Source: a virus
Virus record (IMG/VR): IMGVR_UViG_3300006641_000196
Coordinates: 1-22,587 of that record
Strand: one strand, 5' to 3'
Length of the DNA stretch: 22,587 nucleotides
Of this stretch, positions 42-22,134 are shown piece after piece. Below the pieces are notes generated by a model. It saw only the letters and a list, made by a program, of their open reading frames with translations, was not told where the DNA came from and did not search any database. Every line of letters starts with the position of its first letter. The first letter of the stretch is position 1. The translations under genes and the position numbers were made by a program.

Positions 42-2018
42 TTAATTTGTAAAAGCTCTTATGAATACTCTCAATCCAGAAGGTACTGAGCTATCGGTAT
101 ACTGTATAGTATCATTTCCGCTATTATAAATAAAATCTACCCCATTAACTTGATCTACACCATTAAGAGAACTATATACATAGTTTAGGCTAGCAGGACT
201 ATTAGCACTTACTCTAACAAAGAAACAATTACTAGTTCCTGAACTCACATTAGTATTATACCTAGGCTGAAGATTTAATCCTAAAGCGCTATCTACGTAG
301 GCTTTAGTAGCAGCATTACTAGCGCTTGTAGGAGGTCCTGACAGAGTTAACTCACCTGTCATAGTATCTCCTGCTTTAGATACCTTAGCACTGACATTAC
401 TTTGAACGGAGTTCAAATTAGCGTTTAAACTGGTATAAGTATTAAAATCATTAGCTAAAGCAGCTAAATATGTAGTATAATCATTACCTCTAGCAGAAAG
501 TAGAGTAGCTCCATCATTGGCTAAGGCAGCTAAATATGTTACGTGATCATTCTGATGAGCTGTTAAGAGTGTGGCTCCGTCATTGGCTAAGGCAGCTAAA
601 TATGTTACGTGGTCATTCTGACGAGCCGTTAAGAGTGTGGCTCCGTCATTGGCTAAGGCAGCTAAATACGTTACGTGGTCATTCTGACGAGCAGAAAGTA
701 GAGTAGCTCCATCATTTGCAGCTAATGTAGAATAAGTATTCCAATCATTACTACGCGCAGTTAGTAAGGTAGCTCCATCATTAGCGGCTAAAGTAGAATA
801 TGTAGACCAATCATTAGCTTGATAGTCTATAGTTCTAGCTATGTCATCAGCTGATGTTAAAGTACCTACTCCAACTCTAAACTTAGAGACAGATGCAGAA
901 GCATAAATTAAATTAGCTAATAATGCGCTACTAGTTCCTGCTACTTGAATACCAGAGCCTTCAGCCAATGCATCTGTGCTATTCCAATTTATAATTATAG
1001 TTTTATCTTCGGTAGAGATATTTGATACATTTGCAGTAACGCTATCTCCTAGTATAAATAAATTACCTTCGATTACTAAATCTCTAGCAAAAGTTTTATT
1101 ACTTGTAAATTTTACTGTAGAATCATTGATAATAGCATTGTAAGTATTATAATCATTACTTCTTGCAGTTAATAAAGTAGAATGATCGTTACCTTGCGCA
1201 CTATTCCACGTTGCAAGGTCATTAGCATGCGCGGATAAAAGAGTAGAATGATCATTGCCTTGCGCACTATTCCACGTTGCAAGGTCATTAGCACGCGCGG
1301 ATAAAAGAGTAGAATGATCATTACCCTGTGCGCTATTCCACGTTGCAAGGTCATTAGCATGCGCGGATAGAAGAGTAGAGTGATCATTACCACGTGCTGT
1401 GGCTAAAGTAACTCCATCGTTTGCTTGAGCAGCTAGATAAGTATTATAGTCATTAGCAGCAATTTGTAGATAAGTATTATAATCATTAGCAAAATACCAA
1501 TTATTAGCAGTTGCTACGTTAGCCACAGCGTTAGGAGAAACAGTTAATCCTAAAACCTCTAAGTTACCAGTTATAAAAACATCTCCTGTTGTTATAGAAC
1601 TACCTCTAACGCTTAATAGATAAGCATTAGCTGTTGGTAATATAGTTTGATTAGTTCTTCCGATACTAATACTATTACTAGAAATTAATAAACCAGGTCC
1701 GCCAGTAGTTGATTCTATGCTAAATACGTTTTCTGGTCTAGTCAAAACTATTGTAGAATATACTCCATATTTGAACAGCCCAGTACCATTTACAAAATAA
1801 TTAGTAATTGAAAATTTACTATTGGCAGTATAACCATAAGCATTAGCGTTTGAGTCAAACCAACTATAGAAACTGCCTACATTAGCAGAATTAACACTTA
1901 TATTAGAGAATATGTTTGACCCGGCTAGATGTCTAGATTCAATAGCAGCATTAGCTATTTGAGAAGAACCAATTACATTACTTCCAATTACTGAACTTGT
2001 TATTTTAGTTAATGCCAT
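42..2018 (-). CDS. Tail fibre / appendage protein with hendecad-repeat stalks
   Basis: Structural protein of 658 residues, probably a trimeric fibre or side appendage at the tail tip. The N-terminus (about 1-50) is Ile/Ala/Ser-rich (SSVIGSNVIGSSQIANAAI), a style common at the start of phage fibres. A first stalk (residues 178-298) has an Asn-Asp pair every 11 residues, eleven times. A globular module (about 308-395) includes GNLFILGDSVTAN, EDKTIIINWN and GSGIQVAGTSSA, a pattern seen in other phage fibres. A second stalk (402-533) has twelve more 11-residue units. Next comes the common fibre motif KAGDTMTGELTLSG...NAATKAYVD (548-576), then a C-terminal domain of about 80 residues that may touch the receptor. 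The ATG has an AAGGAG 6 nt upstream, overlapping the stop codon of the gene before it. Function is inferred from motifs and position; receptor and exact location are unknown. Confidence 0.85.
   Translation of the reverse strand: MALTKITSSVIGSNVIGSSQIANAAIESRHLAGSNIFSNISVNSANVGSFYSWFDSNANAYGYTANSKFSITNYFVNGTGLFKYGVYSTIVLTRPENVFSIESTTGGPGLLISSNSISIGRTNQTILPTANAYLLSVRGSSITTGDVFITGNLEVLGLTVSPNAVANVATANNWYFANDYNTYLQIAANDYNTYLAAQANDGVTLATARGNDHSTLLSAHANDLATWNSAQGNDHSTLLSARANDLATWNSAQGNDHSTLLSAHANDLATWNSAQGNDHSTLLTARSNDYNTYNAIINDSTVKFTSNKTFARDLVIEGNLFILGDSVTANVSNISTEDKTIIINWNSTDALAEGSGIQVAGTSSALLANLIYASASVSKFRVGVGTLTSADDIARTIDYQANDWSTYSTLAANDGATLLTARSNDWNTYSTLAANDGATLLSARQNDHVTYLAALANDGATLLTARQNDHVTYLAALANDGATLLTAHQNDHVTYLAALANDGATLLSARGNDYTTYLAALANDFNTYTSLNANLNSVQSNVSAKVSKAGDTMTGELTLSGPPTSASNAATKAYVDSALGLNLQPRYNTNVSSGTSNCFFVRVSANSPASLNYVYSSLNGVDQVNGVDFIYNSGNDTIQYTDSSVPSGLRVFIRAFTN
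453..716 (-). repeat. Four 66-bp tandem repeats inside the fibre gene (stalk 2)
   Basis: Four related 66-bp units encode the 22-residue block NDGATLLTARQNDHVTYLAA plus LA (protein residues 435-522). The middle copies are almost identical at the DNA level and the flanking copies have drifted. The period equals that of stalk 1, but the unit sequence differs, so the two arrays look separately amplified from a common 11-residue ancestor. Confidence 0.88.
1191..1388 (-). repeat. Three 66-bp tandem repeats inside the fibre gene (stalk 1)
   Basis: Three nearly identical 66-bp units encode three 22-residue blocks of the type NDHSTLLSAHANDLATWNSA plus two residues (protein residues 211-276). Only a few bases differ between units. 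The 66-bp period is two 11-residue hendecads, so unit gain or loss would keep the frame and change stalk length. Confidence 0.9.
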
Positions 2019-5900: not shown

Positions 5901-6068
5901 ACCATTTTTTATAGTTCTATCTCCAGTAACATCTACTCTATTTACTGATGTGCATAACAGAGGTATAGATCCTAGAAGGGTATTAAATCCATTTTTGCCT
6001 ACCAGAGCTACTCCGATACCATTAGATATATTAGAAGTATTTTCTACGGTTATTGTTTTATATGCCAT
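2949..6068 (-). CDS. Distal gpJ-like tail-tip protein with fibronectin-III-like domains
   Basis: Large structural protein of 1039 residues encoded directly after the gpJ-like hub gene, with a TAATG junction (1-nt overlap), so translation is probably coupled. AAGG lies about 9 nt before the ATG. Residues 1-390 are beta-rich with no recognised family. Two fibronectin-III-like segments lie at about 411-530 and 531-640 (PDGVTRFSASQLGDQILFSW, LYQFEIKQL, TYLLRTRDTTGN). The C-terminal third is Ser/Asn/Thr-rich and ends in a beta-rich domain (YGAAGFTVVPTLTVSQTSG). In lambda-type phages such FN3 domains form the distal part of gpJ itself, so I infer that the hub is split here into two polypeptides. 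It likely projects from the hub towards the host. An independent central fibre is an alternative. Confidence 0.8.
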   Translation of the reverse strand: MAYKTITVENTSNISNGIGVALVGKNGFNTLLGSIPLLCTSVNRVDVTGDRTIKNGNLEFTVTGLASAIDLNFNKNVLLVNDDPAVFGNLKGIDYVGIPINEKTDTGADIGHVGYNPIVTQISMPIESFNLSNNTLKVNNSVSANHPETFLLDSLPEPPFYLKISQLLDQTKFNNNSVYLEGYSHIFTKTFNIEAIAVAGSSTVNINIVPRYKTAISVYIDNQEQAQGVFTWDSKSNITVQTGTGKVLTVRTNHYTVPIIEPGDNISLFSGNIYAVSETSYNPSSPSYNSYLTTNCIYRVKFATSLTANISGVTGVNISNDIQGTVGNLNATANTFTLDYDNTIYPGVYELGSYKVYNVSLSKTFESLDISKEGKIKNIAPGSYVVRARNKNSFNRKSAYSTKQVNIDTLPIGKVTDLQISESLYRDKQVGIAVRATINFTPIVNQSVTDYEISYKIEDNSSGADLLTYTTVKVSASGIAEDGKLYFKIDNIERGASAGNYRFYARVTPLNNDIRGITTETSADIVGKTAKPDGVTRFSASQLGDQILFSWTVPRDQNGDPLEIDLYQFEIKQLTGTYSSVTESNWESSTSIGSAFANVSFLNAPVREYGTFTYLLRTRDTTGNQCEASDIAVYTITTIRPASLFTFRAFSEDNPGANDYISGSTNNNYFEYYYPSFANSVHGGIAGAGRSIVDNSNGTSTGFTVGVGVTDLNASANAVYYTQIRDLGQLITGRLVSSVNVIQSVTSTYNDFKENVLVGVSDALQSPGFFQDSALTTFLNIATYDTDNKTLTSGGPSGNVYAIWNYGQFVNDVSNANSYALILSVTNSSLGIIQFSNTYFANGVSTGSNILANLSGSATSYALVNLTQYNDRLTSTFEGPSNSISYNVDLRYSTASNVYYSGNNQVNTNAFVGFATNDGLVPLTESDITFRHFQLRVSIVNSKPGQVSTILDKLRYAVNLTRKVFSTSNTINSSNTTIDYGAAGFTVVPTLTVSQTSGTNPVVPIITGKTNNQCGISLYYSSNGVSVTGITVDIKADGA

Positions 6069-9031
6069 TACGATATGCCTTGTGCCAGCACTATTTCAGA
6101 GGGTTTAGCTAATTCCATTTCTGTAGCAATAGAAATTGGGTATCCGGTAGTATCAGTAGATGCATAAATCTCTAAGTCATACTGTACTGATCCATCTAAA
6201 TTCTTTATAGGTCTAGGTATTACTTTTAATATAGGTGCAGGAGGTGGTATTAGAGGATTAGCTGTATCGGTATATTTAACAGGAACGTAACTAATAATGC
6301 TATCAGAATCTGTATATACGTTAGATACATATTCTGTAGCAGTTATAGTAACTAACTCATCAGTATCTCTTTCTACGTTTACTATCTTAAATAGTTTATC
6401 ATTAGTGTTGGTATAGTAATTAGAAGGATCTACCTCTCCTAAAGACCATATATCACCTTTTACGGGAACATTATTAGAAGTAAAAGTACTAAAAGAAGCA
6501 AATGTTCTAGTTTGTGGTTTGTATACTTTTTGAACTGTAAGTTCAATAAGGTCTATGCCTGCATTAACATTAGAACTAGATACAGAACTATAAGTATTAT
6601 TACATATATACAACTCTACTCTCTCTGTCTCTCTATTAATTACTCTCAAAGCTATGGGTTTAGTGTTCCCAGTTATGACAGAACCTGTAATAGCGGGACT
6701 AGTAAAGTGTTCTAGTATTACATTTCCAGTAGCTGTAGTAGCGTTAGCAAATACTCTTCCTCCGTAACCCCAAGCTATACCTCCTATTCTTTGAGATACT
6801 GCTATAACATCTCCAATGGTAGAGGTCATACCTTCAGCAGGCGTTTTAAAAGTAGCCTTTCTTCTGACATATTTGCTAGATGCTAATAAATACTGCCCAA
6901 ACCTCATTGCCTGACTTCGTCTATCACAACCAGGTAAATCTATAGATTTTACATTTTCTATAGAATTAAGCTCAGATATAGCGGTAGGGTCGTCTATTCT
7001 TACTAACTCTCTACGAGAATGATTTCTAGGCTCAAGATAAGATACCTCTACGCCTGTTAAAATTTCTGACTCTCTGATACCACTAATTAGTAAAGAGTTT
7101 TTTAAGATATTTGTCTCATTATATACAGCTACGGGTATTTCATCAGGAAGATCTACATTTAAGGAGATCTTTCCGCCAGAGTAGAACAGGATACCTCTAA
7201 ATATAGCAGTAATCTGATTAATAATATCCATAACTTGTTTTTGGCTGTTAAGAGATATATTACAAGTAAATCTGCGCTCTATGATCTGAGTCCCTAAACT
7301 AACTCCAATTTGATTTTCTCTTACTGTGGTAAATTTACCTCTAGGTTTACTTCTAAAGGTGCCGTCTGCATATCCAGTGACTCCTGTAAATCTACCTGTC
7401 TTAGGGTCAACTGCATCACAATATTGAGCTATCTTGTAGAATTTAAACTTATCTATGTTACCTTCTGGTATTCCTAATCCGTAAGACTGGTTAGTTAATA
7501 AATCATATAGAACCCATATAGGATTCTGAGTCCATTTATAGACGAAAGTACCATCCCAGGATCCTTTATAAATTATGGGATTAGCTTCTGTAAGCTGAGT
7601 AGAAGATCCTGGATTTTCTAAGCTATATCCACAAGTAGTGTAAGAAAGAGCGCCAGAAGTAGGAGTTTCTAACTCTCTCCAATCAATTTCTCCTGTAGCT
7701 AATACAGGTTGATTATAATTACTAGGAACCTTTATTATAAGGCCTTTTACAAGCGAAGTAACAGTAGGAATAGAGCCTGAATATTCAGCAGTAGATTTTA
7801 AAGCAAATCCTAGCAGTGCTGTTCTAGGATAGACTTGTTTAGAGTTTTTTATCTCATCCCATCCAACAAACTGTATAGTATCTTGTATTTTAGAGCTATC
7901 TGAATCATCAGTAATTTTTTCAATTTTAAACTGATATCCGTTTCCACTCTTGACATTATCAGGTATAATAGCTGAGATTTGAAATTTAAAATTAGTATTA
8001 GTTTTTCCTGATATAGTTTTTTCTATTATTAAATCAGCCCCGTTTTCGTCTTTAAGTATATTAGCTCCTGTATAGTCATAAATAGTTATTTTAACACCTA
8101 CAGAGTAACCACTGACATTACCGTTGTTATCCATACTTTGTAGCCCAGAGATTAAGAAATTAAATTCTAAGCTATCCCAGGCGCTTTGACTTGTGTTTTG
8201 TGTAATAACTACTTTAGGTATACTCTCTAAATTACCCTTTTTAAGACTTACTGGGGAGTTTAGTCCTTGAGGTGTTACAGTTTTACCAGCAAATCTACCT
8301 AAACTAGCTGGCAATCCTTTACCCGTAACTGTCCCTGTTGACTGTGCCGTATAGAATAGTTCAGTATTTACAGTTCCGTCACCATCTATTTTTATTAAGT
8401 CGTCTATAGTAGATTCGTTAAATTCTATATCTTGAGGTCCATTAGGATTAATACGATATACTGGTCCCTCTCCTAAAGCTAAAGTGCCGAAGAAAATATC
8501 AGTAGAAAATAGAGAATTAGGCGCCTCCACAGCAGGAGCTGGAGAAGCTCCTTTTCCTCCGCCCTTATTATGCACGCGAATGCCGTTGGCTATATAGGTA
8601 TGATCATTTTCTACAGTAAAATTATATACTTTACTTTTACCTATATTTTTAATACCAATAATAGGTCTATAATATCCTAATCTATCAACTAAGACATCAT
8701 CTATTTGTAAATTACCTATAGCTGTAAAAGCCATATTCTCATTTAAAACCCAGTGATTAGGTGTTATTTTAAAACTACCATTCCAAAAAGAAATATCTAC
8801 TAGCTCATCTTCATCGTGCTCGAATATTTGAATGACTTTATTCTCTGATAGTTTACCATAATGATCAAAGCTAATTACTATATCATTTACTCGTATTTCT
8901 TCAATAGGTTTATTACCGCCAGGAATATCTATAAGGGTTCCTGCCGCGAAGCATCCTCCTTTACCTCCAGAGATAAAGGGCACATATCTACCGTTTATAA
9001 TATAGTAAGATTTATACATAGCTTGATACAT
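6068..9031 (-). CDS. gpJ-like tail-tip hub / host-specificity protein with inserted Hint domain
   Basis: Protein of 987 residues that forms the tail-tip hub. Residues 27-155 are an intein-like Hint domain, described separately. From 156 on the protein follows lambda gpJ: a Lys/Gly-rich start (KGGGKG), then LALGEGPVYRINPNGPQDI, a beta-rich region, KQVYPRTALLGFAL, GLIIKVPSNYN, SWDGTFVYKWTQNPIWVLYD, IAQYCDAVDP, and DLPGCDRRSQAMRFGQYLLA. These match the order of conserved gpJ blocks as I remember them. No FN3 domains follow; they appear in the next gene. The ATG at 9031 overlaps the upstream gene by 20 nt and has AGGTGA about 8 nt before it. A second in-frame ATG (9019) would give an 8-nt overlap identical in sequence to that of the preceding junction, so residues 1-4 are uncertain. 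Confidence 0.93.
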   Translation of the reverse strand: MYQAMYKSYYIINGRYVPFISGGKGGCFAAGTLIDIPGGNKPIEEIRVNDIVISFDHYGKLSENKVIQIFEHDEDELVDISFWNGSFKITPNHWVLNENMAFTAIGNLQIDDVLVDRLGYYRPIIGIKNIGKSKVYNFTVENDHTYIANGIRVHNKGGGKGASPAPAVEAPNSLFSTDIFFGTLALGEGPVYRINPNGPQDIEFNESTIDDLIKIDGDGTVNTELFYTAQSTGTVTGKGLPASLGRFAGKTVTPQGLNSPVSLKKGNLESIPKVVITQNTSQSAWDSLEFNFLISGLQSMDNNGNVSGYSVGVKITIYDYTGANILKDENGADLIIEKTISGKTNTNFKFQISAIIPDNVKSGNGYQFKIEKITDDSDSSKIQDTIQFVGWDEIKNSKQVYPRTALLGFALKSTAEYSGSIPTVTSLVKGLIIKVPSNYNQPVLATGEIDWRELETPTSGALSYTTCGYSLENPGSSTQLTEANPIIYKGSWDGTFVYKWTQNPIWVLYDLLTNQSYGLGIPEGNIDKFKFYKIAQYCDAVDPKTGRFTGVTGYADGTFRSKPRGKFTTVRENQIGVSLGTQIIERRFTCNISLNSQKQVMDIINQITAIFRGILFYSGGKISLNVDLPDEIPVAVYNETNILKNSLLISGIRESEILTGVEVSYLEPRNHSRRELVRIDDPTAISELNSIENVKSIDLPGCDRRSQAMRFGQYLLASSKYVRRKATFKTPAEGMTSTIGDVIAVSQRIGGIAWGYGGRVFANATTATGNVILEHFTSPAITGSVITGNTKPIALRVINRETERVELYICNNTYSSVSSSNVNAGIDLIELTVQKVYKPQTRTFASFSTFTSNNVPVKGDIWSLGEVDPSNYYTNTNDKLFKIVNVERDTDELVTITATEYVSNVYTDSDSIISYVPVKYTDTANPLIPPPAPILKVIPRPIKNLDGSVQYDLEIYASTDTTGYPISIATEMELAKPSEIVLAQGIS
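8567..8953 (-). other. Hint (intein-like, BIL type) domain within the gpJ-like protein
   Basis: Residues 27-155 of the hub protein. Block A is CFAAGTLI with Cys27 as first residue, followed by KPIEEIRVNDIVISFD. Block B is ITPNHWV with the TxxH pair Thr90/His93. Block F is VENDHTYIANG and block G ends with His154-Asn155. There is no homing endonuclease insertion, so this is a mini-Hint of 129 residues. The residue after Asn155 is Lys156, not Cys, Ser or Thr, as in A-type bacterial-intein-like domains. The flanks are both Gly/Lys-rich (SGGKGG before, KGGGKG after). All residues for N-S shift and Asn cyclisation are present, so cleavage is chemically plausible; efficient splicing is less certain. 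Confidence 0.9.
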
Positions 9032-9575
9032 TAATTACATCACCTTTTTCGTGATTAATAGTATTTACATCCGCACTAATAATCTGGCCGCCAACTCTCA
9101 ACATACCATAGTTTAAAGGTATAGAATTACTGCTGTCAACTGTATTTATTATACCATCGAAAGCATCATTATTTCTTCTATCCTGATCTGTTATACCTAT
9201 ATCAGATCTTTTTGGCTTAGGCATAATAGCTTGTATAACTGCGCCTAGAGCAAAGCTAATAACTGTTCCTACTATTGCTCTAGTAAAAGCTTGAGCAAAA
9301 GTAGCGCTTGTTATTGACCCAAGGAGTTCACTATTTCCACAAACTAAAGGAACTACGAAACAACCTGTTTGAGTTTCTGGTATTTCATCCTGCATTAACC
9401 AACTATCTGGAAAGGGTTTGAAATCTTGGGTAAGAAGAAGTGTTTTTGTTTTATCTATGGCAGGATAAAAATTTTGTATATAAGAAGTAAGATCAGATAC
9501 TTTTTTAATATTTATAGCTACTTGAGCTATATCTTCTGGTTGTAATAAGGACTTATGAAAGCGAATATTATACAT
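9012..9575 (-). CDS. gpI-like tail assembly protein, second copy
   Basis: A 187-residue paralogue of the preceding gpI-like protein. The N-terminal 80 residues (IRFHKSLL... to CFVVPLVCGN) look like a diverged ubiquitin-like beta-grasp domain. A hydrophobic Gly/Ala segment follows (FTRAIVGTVISFALGAVIQA), then a Lys/Arg-rich linker and a C-terminal block (DRRNNDAFD, INTV, IPLNYGMLRVGGQIISADVN) nearly identical to that of its neighbour. I chose ATG 9575 over the longer GTG at 9587. From ATG the protein begins MYNIRFHKSLL, which aligns with MSSVTVSFHKSLL of the neighbour, and the overlap becomes 8 nt (ATGTATAA); neither start has a strong ribosome site. In lambda, gpI works in tail-tip initiator assembly; this copy lacks good conservation in the first half and may be specialised. 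Confidence 0.82.
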   Translation of the reverse strand: MYNIRFHKSLLQPEDIAQVAINIKKVSDLTSYIQNFYPAIDKTKTLLLTQDFKPFPDSWLMQDEIPETQTGCFVVPLVCGNSELLGSITSATFAQAFTRAIVGTVISFALGAVIQAIMPKPKRSDIGITDQDRRNNDAFDGIINTVDSSNSIPLNYGMLRVGGQIISADVNTINHEKGDVINVSSYV

Positions 9576-10341
9576 AAGCTGCCACACTAATTACATCAGT
9601 TTTTTCATGACTAATACTATTTACATCCGCGCTAATAATCTGTCCAGCGACTCTTAACATACCATAGTTGAGAGATATAGATTGATTGGGATGTATAGTA
9701 TTTATCTGACTATCAAAAGCATCATTATTACGTCTATCCCCAGAATCAGCAGAATCCATACTTTTAATTTTAGGTTTAATAGGGACTAGAGTATTTGAAA
9801 CTATATTTCCAACTGCACTAGCTATTCCTGCTGCTACGTAAGAACCTACTGTTCCTTGAAAAGCTGTAGTTCCTAGTCCAGCAGGACCTAATATAGTTTC
9901 TCCTAATACAGGAGTAGCAAACTGTTGAAATCCGTAAGCCCCCACCGCTGCAAAAGCTCCACTAATCAAACCTCTAACGAGCGCTTGTCCTAAACTAGCA
10001 CCTTGTAATAAAGAGACTGTGGTAGATAATACAAAACTTACTGCAAAAGCAGATAGAGGATCTACTCCACTTCCTTTAAAAACAGGAACTAAATAATAAA
10101 TCTCACCTTCTTTAGCTAAAAATAAAAATTCTTCATTAGATAGATAGCGATTATTATGAACTATAGCTATCTCTTCTAAAGAGCTGAATTTAACGTGTTT
10201 TACTAAACGTTCCAGCTCTGGGAATAGATTTAAAGAGTTTAAAAATAAAAAATAAATAGCGTCGGCTGTCATCTCTACTTGTTTGACGCCGTTGGTATAA
10301 GGTAATAGACTTTTATGAAAAGATACAGTTACACTAGACAA
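9568..10341 (-). CDS. gpI-like tail assembly protein with ubiquitin-like N-terminus, first copy
   Basis: Protein of 257 residues. Residues 1-90 fit the ubiquitin-like beta-grasp domain of lambda gpI (TAPI): strand VTVSFHKSLLPY, helix DAIYFLFLNSLNLFP, and a last strand EIYYLVPVFKGSG like the VPRMAG end of lambda gpI. Residues 95-185 hold several hydrophobic Gly/Ala-rich segments. The C-terminal block (202-257) has DRRNNDAFD, ISLNYGMLRVAGQIISADVN and HEKTDVI. It follows the JAMM peptidase gene with an 8-nt overlap. The start codon is TTG: no ATG or GTG lies near it in frame and the next Met is residue 24, inside the conserved domain. GAAGAG lies about 8 nt upstream as a weak ribosome site. It probably acts with gpJ, gpL and the peptidases in tail-tip assembly. 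Confidence 0.85.
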   Translation of the reverse strand: MSSVTVSFHKSLLPYTNGVKQVEMTADAIYFLFLNSLNLFPELERLVKHVKFSSLEEIAIVHNNRYLSNEEFLFLAKEGEIYYLVPVFKGSGVDPLSAFAVSFVLSTTVSLLQGASLGQALVRGLISGAFAAVGAYGFQQFATPVLGETILGPAGLGTTAFQGTVGSYVAAGIASAVGNIVSNTLVPIKPKIKSMDSADSGDRRNNDAFDSQINTIHPNQSISLNYGMLRVAGQIISADVNSISHEKTDVISVAAYV

Positions 10342-19853: not shown

Positions 19854-21110
19854 TTACTTCTTAGCGTATAGGTCTACTTCACCACCGGTTGTAACGGTAT
19901 TGACTGGTTCCTGTGCTTTGAAGTTTACTGATATTGAAATAATATCTTCAATTCCGTGAGTTGGAACGTCAAATACTATTGCAGGCATATTGAGTGCTAG
20001 GTATGGAGCAGTAACTCCTCCAACAACTAGGTTTGCATTTGAGAATGCAGTAGGAGCTGGGCGACGATCATTAGCTAGATCACGTAGGAATTGAGCAGAA
20101 TCTCCGTCTGCACCACGTAGGTAAGCAGTGAATGATCCTGTTACTTCTCTAGAACCCGTGAAGCTACCAATAGGGGTATTGACCTTTGATAGTTCTTCTG
20201 GAGTGATGAAGGTGATATTATTGTTATAGTTGAAGGTGAGAGCCGTGATTGGGAAAGTATAAGTTGTTGAAGAACCGCCTGCAGGCTGAAACTTAACAGT
20301 TAGGCTTGAAAGTCTATTCTTAATGAAGCTTGCAGTAGAGATTGTTCCTGCTACGTTCCACTGATCCCAAGGTTGATAAGAATGAGTTGCAGTAGTTACG
20401 TAAGCATTGCTGTTAGCGTCTATTGTGGTTCCATTATTTAAAATACCACCAAACACAGATACTGCATTATTTCTAGGAGTACCAGTTAGTTCGATTAGGT
20501 TAGTGCCAAATCCAGACCAAGTAGTAGTAGCAACTGCGTCAATAGCAGCGTCTACTGCAGCCTGATTAACTGCTGTATTAGATACCTGATATATAACGTT
20601 ATCAAGTTTAAAATACAAATTATAAGCAGTAGATGTACCGAAATTAGGTGTATGAGCAGCAGTATTACCGCTAGCATTTCTAGCAGCACTAGCAAACTTT
20701 CCACCTGCCTGCCATACGCTAGTAAGCTTATTGGTAGTATAGGTAGAAGTATTTGACATAAGAGCTTGCCATAGATACCAATCTGAGGTAGGCATTGAAT
20801 TACCTGACGTGTGAACCAAAGTACCGCCAGTAGTATTTTCAATACCAGTTGGACGGATATATGCTTGGAAATTCCACTCTACAGGGTTCATTGCTGTTTT
20901 AAAACGCTTACTAGAGCGATCTGGTGTAGTACCGCTCTCTAAGCTGTTGATGTCCTGAGTAGCTGCAGCCTGTGACATTGCATAACCTGCAAGGATTTCA
21001 ACCTTCCAAGTATTTGCCGGTGTCATTGCTGATACTGCGTCTCCATCGTTAAGACTTACAGTAGAAAGGAACACTTCACTATTTCTTTGAAGGTTCAATG
21101 TTTGTGCCAT
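19854..21110 (-). CDS. Major tail tube protein
   Basis: Protein of 418 residues that should polymerise into the tail tube (lambda gpV role). The N-terminal region includes WKVEILAGYAM, INSLESGTTPDRSSKRFKTA and VEWNFQAYIRPT. The end has FITPEELSKVNTPIGSFTGS, VTGSFTAYLRG and PTHGIEDIISISVNFKAQEP, a pattern I know from major tail proteins of phages. It is longer than lambda gpV; the central 110-260 region may be an added surface domain. The ATG has a strong AAGGAG 6 nt upstream. The gene is the only one flanked by sizeable gaps on both sides, with a candidate promoter before and hairpins after, which suits the need for many copies. Codon choice seems shifted (more CTT, AAC, TTC, ATT) compared with neighbours. 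Confidence 0.93.
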   Translation of the reverse strand: MAQTLNLQRNSEVFLSTVSLNDGDAVSAMTPANTWKVEILAGYAMSQAAATQDINSLESGTTPDRSSKRFKTAMNPVEWNFQAYIRPTGIENTTGGTLVHTSGNSMPTSDWYLWQALMSNTSTYTTNKLTSVWQAGGKFASAARNASGNTAAHTPNFGTSTAYNLYFKLDNVIYQVSNTAVNQAAVDAAIDAVATTTWSGFGTNLIELTGTPRNNAVSVFGGILNNGTTIDANSNAYVTTATHSYQPWDQWNVAGTISTASFIKNRLSSLTVKFQPAGGSSTTYTFPITALTFNYNNNITFITPEELSKVNTPIGSFTGSREVTGSFTAYLRGADGDSAQFLRDLANDRRPAPTAFSNANLVVGGVTAPYLALNMPAIVFDVPTHGIEDIISISVNFKAQEPVNTVTTGGEVDLYAKK

Positions 21111-21205: not shown

Positions 21206-21688
21206 TCAAATGTTAGAATCTTGTATATATATTACTAATGCTCTAATCTCTGCCACTCCATAAGGATCCATTATACCTTCATCAGTAGACAGGGACTCTA
21301 CTCTGCATTCGGTTACGTTTAAACTTTTAAAAGAAGGACGATATTTCATAGAATCTATAATATACTGTACATCCTGAGCAAGATCAGCTGTAACCTCTAT
21401 AGAATTATCGTCGCTATACACATAACCTCTAATTTCTAAAATAAAACTACAGAAAACTTGTGCATCTCCTATTCTGCTTCTAGTTTCAGAACTCATAGGG
21501 TAACAATACACACTAGGAAAATCATTTATAGTATTTAAGTATTCTTGTTTTGCAAAAGCGTTGTTATTAATGTTGGTACAAAAAGTATAAGGGCTGCGAG
21601 GACTATTAGGTAAACTTTCTATGCCTCCGTCTATCAGCTTGAGAGCTGTGACTATTTCATTTATAATTTGCCTGCGTTTGCTACTCAT
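21206..21688 (-). CDS. Tail terminator-like protein, copy 2
   Basis: Protein of 160 residues in the position of the tail terminator (lambda gpU role), just before the major tail protein gene. It begins RRQIINEIVTALKLIDGGIE and ends with GIMDPYGVAEIRALVIYIQD; the middle has NDFPSVYCYP and a VTADLAQDVQYIIDSMKYR helix. This alpha/beta layout with an N-terminal RxxII..I...LK.IDG helix and a DPYGxxEI end is seen in terminator-like or minor tail proteins. It starts at a TAATG junction with its paralogue. Terminators cap the tube and form the interface to the head connector. Assignment rests on position and pattern; whether this copy or the other is the true terminator cannot be told. Confidence 0.7.
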   Translation of the reverse strand: MSSKRRQIINEIVTALKLIDGGIESLPNSPRSPYTFCTNINNNAFAKQEYLNTINDFPSVYCYPMSSETRSRIGDAQVFCSFILEIRGYVYSDDNSIEVTADLAQDVQYIIDSMKYRPSFKSLNVTECRVESLSTDEGIMDPYGVAEIRALVIYIQDSNI

Positions 21689-22134
21689 TAGTCATCCACA
21701 TCATATATTACCAGTACTCTAATTTCTCCAAGACCGTATGGATCTAATAATCCAGAATCAGAATCTATCGAGGATACTTCTGCCGATATAATTCTGCTAT
21801 TTTGGGTAAATTTAATTCTTTCTAGAGCATGGGTAATATCTTCTATTATATCTTCAAGTTTATACATACTATTTTCTTCATATGTATATACTCTTACCAC
21901 AACTTCCATTGATCCTTGAGTATTTGTTTTAGAGTTATAAGAGTAGGTTTCTACGCCTCCCTGTACATATATACTAGGAAAATCATTTATTTGGTCTATA
22001 TATTTCAATCCTTTAAATACGTTTTGAGATAAATTAGTTTTAAAATTATAACCATAGGAACTAGTTGCACCGTCTATAGTTTTAAGTTGTGCTATAATAA
22101 AGTTAATTATTTCTCTACGTCTACTAGTTGCCAT
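21688..22134 (-). CDS. Tail terminator-like protein, copy 1
   Basis: A 148-residue paralogue of the following protein. Shared parts are RRREIINFIIAQLKTIDGA at the N-terminus, INDFPSIYV in the middle, a helix LEDIIEDITHALERIKFTQN, and GLLDPYGLGEIRVLVIYDVD at the end. Overall length and order of these parts agree, so the two genes arose by tandem duplication. The start lies 1 nt after the stop of the upstream gene. Likely a tail terminator or a neck/tail joining protein. One copy may cap the tube while the other has a connector role, but the sequence does not tell which. Confidence 0.7.
   Translation of the reverse strand: MATSRRREIINFIIAQLKTIDGATSSYGYNFKTNLSQNVFKGLKYIDQINDFPSIYVQGGVETYSYNSKTNTQGSMEVVVRVYTYEENSMYKLEDIIEDITHALERIKFTQNSRIISAEVSSIDSDSGLLDPYGLGEIRVLVIYDVDD

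Follow-up and report, generated by a model that had tools for sequence, protein, structure and literature searches.

The question raised by this locus is what kind of structure a viral protein could build from an Asn-Asp pair that recurs at every eleventh residue. The protein is encoded by an open reading frame (ORF) of 658 residues in the window, i.e. the whole 22,587-base IMG/VR virus fragment analysed (record IMGVR_UViG_3300006641_000196). Taken as a whole, the evidence makes it probable that this ORF codes for a siphovirus tail fibre with straight hendecad stalks, arranged as a parallel trimer with polar Asn-Asp layers in its core.

The fibre gene and its repeat

The large genes of the window are all encoded on the minus strand and can be interpreted as a siphovirus tail, in the order tail terminator, major tail protein, tail assembly chaperone, a protein of 1,662 residues that, judged from its position and length, occupies the tape-measure slot, minor tail proteins, NlpC/P60, JAB, tail assembly protein, J-like protein, and fibre-like genes of 1,039, 305 and 658 residues. 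The last of these is the final gene in the window and the third after the J-like tail-tip gene, a location within the tail-tip gene cluster that is expected of a trimeric phage tail fibre. The relevant features are listed below, related loci on other contigs being designated by L numbers.

42..2018, minus strand: whole fibre ORF, 658 residues plus stop (ORF list; homologues)
1488..2018, minus strand: N-terminal part, residues 1-177, the putative attachment part; conserved in L013 and L016, its first 31 residues also in L070
1125..1487, minus strand: stalk 1, residues 178-298, 11 units NDxxTxxxAxx; AF2 helix 177-297
816..1124, minus strand: module between the stalks, residues 299-401; 55-85% identity in L013, L014, L058, L070 and L031
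420..815, minus strand: stalk 2, residues 402-533, 12 units NDxxTxxxAxx; AF2 helix 390-545, pLDDT at most 85 per 10-residue block
384..419, minus strand: exit coil, residues 534-545 (NLNSVQSNVSAK); hydrophobic at phases 2, 5 and 9
45..383, minus strand: tip, residues 546-658, with GDTMTG and the neck-like PTSASNAATKAYVD; weak PDB matches to phage fibres, a different tip in L058
2028..2945, minus strand: neighbouring fibre gene, 305 residues; last 105 residues similar to the tip of hendecad fibre L058 (69.5%)
6068..9031, minus strand: J-like tail-tip protein; phrog_31, E 9e-107

The initial annotation had described a stalk at 420-1487 in which Asn-Asp occurs at every eleventh residue with Thr and small residues at fixed places, a description that proved accurate in each respect: residues 178-533 map exactly to that interval, the pair recurs 11 times in stalk 1 (178, 189 ... 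288) and 12 times in stalk 2 (402, 413 ... 523) with all within-stalk spacings equal to 11, and Asn1, Asp2 and Thr5 are each present in 23/23 units, position 9 being occupied by Ala in 18, Leu in three and Ile in two. Position 6 is Leu, Tyr or Trp in every one of these units, and position 7 is Leu in 15. The sustained 11-residue periodicity that characterises a hendecad coil is a property of all 23 units, and the longest in-phase run recorded in 10,000 shuffles of the protein was 2 (in 293 shuffles), as against the 12 observed. Two other Asn-Asp pairs are out of phase, one at 298, 10 residues beyond the final unit of stalk 1, and one within the tip at 635. Tandem Repeats Finder recovered the same arrays at the DNA level as 33-, 66- and 132-base units. 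Codons at the fixed residues vary, with all four Thr codons deployed at position 5 and both codons each for Asn and Asp, which indicates that the constraint acts on the protein and that the repeat is not solely a product of recent DNA duplication. An identical protein is encoded on IMG/VR contig 3300006030_000265 (L009).

Other observations were made on the surrounding tail genes. The J-like protein carries a Hint/intein-like domain near its N-terminus (residues about 24-157; PT-HINT E 2.3e-6, Intein_splicing 6.1e-5), and an Achromobacter phage sequence matched by the fibre tip is also annotated as a Hint-family protein. Adjoining genes at 9012-9587 and 9568-10341 (minus) share near-identical ends (RRNNDAFD..INT...NYGMLRV.GQIISADVN) and are apparently a duplicated tail assembly protein, phrog_32 being matched by the first. 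Another adjoining pair, 21206-21688 and 21688-22134 (minus), is similar by eye, with ends DPYG.AEIR/GEIRVLVIY, and its first member matches a tail terminator family. The major tail protein (19854-21110, minus) is matched by 893 phage records, all at <60% identity, the highest, about 31%, being to 107-115 kb phages such as Vibrio phage KIT04.

The viral family and the evidence for a helix

A scan of viral contigs with a three-unit DNA pattern returned 107 stretches, which were sorted into 53 helical, 36 Trp-rich, 10 other and 8 without an in-frame ORF; removal of L074 and L090 from the 53 as low complexity left 51 loci on 43 contigs (hand count). Statistics were compiled from 47 non-redundant viral ORFs, or 45 after removal of two chance low-complexity ones, the window ORF being included, and are descriptive, as the units share ancestry and their counts and p-values are non-independent. 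The Trp-rich stretches represent a separate viral repeat, (V/I)NDSQTPNWxx, also of period 11 and often located at an ORF C-terminus (L019, L022, L039 and 33 other loci); Gln at position 4, as in its ND-x-Q-T motif, is found in none of the window units.

Among 460 successive motif gaps of up to 40 residues in the 47 ORFs, 402 were of 11 residues, 26 of 15, 18 of 22 and 14 longer, while no gap of 12-14 or 16-21 residues was recorded. A four-residue insertion constitutes a stutter, which coiled coils tolerate (PMC4786415), and the added place in the 15-residue units, position 13, which lies four past position 9, is Tyr or Phe in 25/26. Mean covariation between variable places was highest at a separation of 4 (0.32), followed by 1 (0.25), 3 (0.24) and 2 (0.18), and was lower beyond; Arg at position 10 was followed four residues on by Tyr, Phe, Trp or His in 115/132 unique 22-mers, compared with 85/207 for other residues at that place. 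The 11/15 spacing, the covariation at 4 and the pairing of Arg10 with aromatic residues or His therefore indicate an alpha helix independently of AF2.

AF2, supplied with 8 sequences and modelling single chains, so that the models are silent on trimers, predicted one helix per stalk (177-297 and 390-545; block pLDDT 42-69 and 42-85, respectively). Confidence over the fibre protein was modest (mean pLDDT 43.5), and outside the stalk helices there was no confident model. At 1.5 Å per residue the predicted helices would be about 18 and 23 nm long. A single-sequence model of the relative L081 also placed helices over much of the repeat region, broken and with block pLDDT of at most 51. Support for the alpha-helical backbone comes from prediction, moderate from AF2 and weak from L081, together with helix-like covariation. 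The AF2 helices match the repeat limits, and the 15-residue spacings, i/i+4 covariation and helix phasing agree with them. A helical hendecad stalk with an 11/3 geometry, as initially proposed, is accordingly well supported; no beta structure was present in the stalks of the AF2 model of the 658-residue ORF, and the beta-helix that had been named beforehand as the contrary outcome did not appear. The proposal that the stalk is nearly straight to slightly right-handed likewise stands, because 11 residues over three turns correspond to 3.67 residues per turn (PMC4786415).

Comparison of relatives established that the number of units varies. Stalk 2 comprises 10 units in L015, 12 in the window and L009-L013, 14 in L070 and 17 in L014, and the relatives with 10 to 17 units have kept the module and tip of the window protein. 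In L013 the unit numbers equal those of the window (11 + 12), with a DNA identity to it of 59% in stalk 1 as against 98% in stalk 2, a contrast which indicates that units or blocks are exchanged. L058 retains the module (79%) and carries a different tip, resembling the C-terminus of the neighbouring gene of the window (69.5% over 105 residues). The module has no confident AF2 fold, though it is conserved among relatives, and its service as a knob or hinge is a guess. As 11 residues make three turns, the addition or removal of units would barely alter the direction in which the tip points, and fibre length could evolve by such gain and loss, with tips swapped separately.

L060 and L058 are both located on contig 3300001850_000317 (48,571 bases), in which the fibre gene is cut at both contig ends, suggesting that the genome, of about 48.6 kb, is circular or circularly permuted.

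Register, core and number of chains

Residues likely to face the axis were assigned from the phase of hydrophobic residues at the stalk ends, from substitutions and from conservation. At 71 stalk exits, Ile, Leu, Val, Met or Phe occupied position 9 in 70%, then position 2 in 63%, 5 in 38% and the following 9 in 75%, with no other place in the two units above 31%; at 70 stalk entries the hydrophobic share was only partly in phase, with 63% at 9 and 53% at 2, but also 50% at 7. In 323 neighbour-defined units, Asn1 was conserved in 322, Asp2 in 310 and Thr5 in 318, and the 13 units without Asp at position 2 had Thr (6), Ile (4), Ser (2) or Leu (1) there, none of them charged. Of the 11 possible a/d/e/h registers, 9-1-2-5 gave the lowest mean entropy (0.33 bits vs 2.14 for other places). 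These three lines of evidence make Asp2, Thr5 and Ala9 the residues most likely to face the axis, and place Asn1 and the large residue at position 6 most probably at the two edges. The suggestion that regular Asn layers act as in trimeric adhesins was not sustained in that form: this register would put Asp2, Thr5 and Ala9 nearest the axis with Asn1 beside them, and the arrangement differs from an N@d layer, i.e. Asn at d of heptads, in having a period of 11 and an Asp following each Asn.

A polar core is therefore the likely arrangement. The best register holds Ala, Asn, Asp and Thr at a, d, e and h, and hydrophobic residues occur at the stalk exits, so that the stalk behaves like a hendecad coil while not being classed as a classical hydrophobic-core one. 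The main result contrary to a polar core is the hydrophobic moment of the stalk units, which at 213-229 degrees points nearly opposite to the 2/5/9 face (65 degrees); with Asn1 and Asp2 omitted, one scale gave a weak moment (54 degrees, 0.47) and the other a direction of 157 degrees. In addition, the Leu at position 7 (15/23 in the window) would point outwards, and three Asp per layer over 23 layers represent a costly charge in the core.

The same moment, together with the Leu, Tyr or Trp at position 6 and the frequent Leu at 7, would be explained by an inverted register, that is, a helical bundle having the larger 3/6/7/10 face as its core and Asn-Asp-Thr-Ala outside for lateral contacts or for ligand or ion binding. 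Such an arrangement is nonetheless unlikely, in that positions 3, 7 and 10 are the least conserved, ranging from Gly to Trp and from Arg to Leu (registers a=3 and a=7 have a core entropy of 2.24-2.28 bits), position 10 is frequently Arg, and the exit coils and 15-residue units continue the 2/5/9 phase without any shift.

With respect to the number of chains, domains of trimeric fibres were identified among the 45 family ORFs (Peptidase_S74 in 8, BppL_N in 3, Collar in 2), many of whose PHROG matches are to tail-fibre families. Fibres with BppL_N or Collar domains are trimeric as far as known. T5 pb1, an S74-type fibre, is a homotrimer with a trimeric, self-cleaved C-terminal chaperone (PMC4690869). 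The Pfam search of the window protein itself gave neither a trimerisation nor an S74 domain, while its neck-like stretch weakly resembled phage hyaluronidase fibres (E about 0.03), all nine PDB matches of that search (E 0.03 to 0.46) being phage hyaluronidases or tail fibres. Because relatives carry trimeric-fibre domains and the window protein has this weak neck-motif match, we infer by analogy that the stalk is a trimer. That two similarly long stalks flank a single module could also reflect a hairpin with stalk 2 folded back on stalk 1, or the helices might associate as a dimer or tetramer; this group of arrangements is distinctly improbable, as L061 has one unbroken run of 20 Asn-Asp units followed by an S74 domain, the lengths of stalks 1 and 2 differ in L031 and L070, and the S74, Collar and BppL_N domains of the relatives belong to the trimeric fibres just described. 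A beta-solenoid or flexible low-complexity linker, to which the lack of strong helix formers among Asn, Asp, Gly, Thr and Tyr and the beta-like appearance by eye of the Trp-rich repeat with the same ND..T spacing (36/107 stretches) might point, is scarcely credible in view of the AF2 helices, stutter spacing, i+4 covariation and continuity with the coils.

On the preferred reading, a parallel trimer with a polar core, each subunit would begin with an attachment part and continue through a straight helical stalk (11 hendecads), the conserved module and a second stalk (12 hendecads) to a tip which may bind the receptor. The axis would be lined in each unit by Ala9, Asp2 and Thr5; Asn1 would sit at the edge next to the neighbouring chain, and the large residue at 6 would close the opposite edge of the interface. 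A polar ring would then recur about every 16.5 Å, in which Asn1 may meet the Asp2 of its neighbour through hydrogen bonds between the side chains, perhaps together with water or a cation; arithmetic on an ideal trimer of assumed geometry places their beta-carbons 5.4 Å apart. We would also advance, more tentatively and with rather less than even confidence, the idea of a stalk family held mainly by Asn-Asp-Thr rings in place of a hydrophobic core, forming a modular ladder that may hold cations in file and could lengthen by ~1.65 nm with each added unit while the tip keeps its orientation. As a natural series in viral contigs, the family combines a polar motif that hardly varies with many different repeat numbers and with ends that can be recognised, and it would allow a direct test of whether polar layers can sustain a coiled coil and of how phages tune fibre length.

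Comparison with known sequences and structures

No match to the window protein was obtained from Pfam or PHROG at E <=0.1, or from NCBIfam at E <=1. Matches of PSMbeta to L070 (3.1e-10) and of Alanine_zipper to L026 (5e-6) were rejected as sums over repeats, no single stretch passing alone. Comparison of the whole protein with the PDB by phmmer gave just two matches (E 0.6 and 0.84), and a stalk profile of 23 segments gave seven at E >=0.08, headed by antibody light chains and taken as chance, so that neither search produced a convincing PDB match over the stalk. Against named phages, tblastn with the whole protein, stalk probe or middle module gave no match with the low-complexity filter on and the stalk possibly masked, while the tip matched 9 records (7 Streptomyces, 2 Achromobacter) over about 30% of its length. 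A four-unit pattern found 33 stretches in a cellular genome collection, 16 of them with an in-frame ORF; by eye these 16 are tandem low-complexity repeats, none resembling the viral family, and one of them, L138, fits a loose ND..T[aromatic] motif with Ser, Asp and Arg where Ala would be expected. The comparison is uneven, the viral scan having used three units, and at the protein level 36/47 viral ORFs would satisfy the four-unit pattern.

The literature searched, comprising titles and abstract openings with few subscription papers, yielded no description of an Asn-Asp hendecad phage stalk. Ice-binding helices with 11-residue Thr repeats offer a possible analogy to the fibre stalk. Families of proteins with mainly hendecad coiled coils were reportedly described by Martinez-Goikoetxea and Lupas in 2023, as cited in PMC11676326. 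Long hendecad coiled coils are rare, and PMC11676326 states that AlphaFold has difficulty with them and that sequence predictors detect them poorly.

Trimeric autotransporter adhesins, in which Asn at d of heptads coordinates anions as N@d layers (PMC4786415), resemble the window protein in having regular Asn layers in a coiled-coil stalk, but differ in that the latter has hendecads with an acidic Asp adjoining each Asn; this would favour hydrogen bonding or a cation. PMC4786415 also describes the streptococcal prophage hyaluronidase fibres 2C3F and 2DP5, which alternate coiled coil and beta parts and include a TAA-short-neck-like stretch that PTSASNAATKAYVDSAL of the window protein resembles (a short, weak match, E about 0.03), and its passages on these fibres report no Asn-Asp hendecads. 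The likeness to T5 pb1 (PMC4690869) resides in the Peptidase_S74 domain of 8/45 hendecad ORFs, which the window protein itself is without.

The nearest structural precedent found, for which no homology is claimed, is provided by the undecads of the trimeric adhesin NadA3 (PDB 6EUN), which have a polar d-e ring with Asn100 at d and Lys101 at e (PMC6191539). Whereas NadA3 has two undecads inside a heptad coil with buried a and h positions, the window protein has 23 units with Ala and Thr at a and h; like NadA3, it would combine an 11-residue unit in a fibrous trimer, here presumed, with a polar d-e ring; with position 9 taken as a, Asn and Asp would fall at d and e, respectively.
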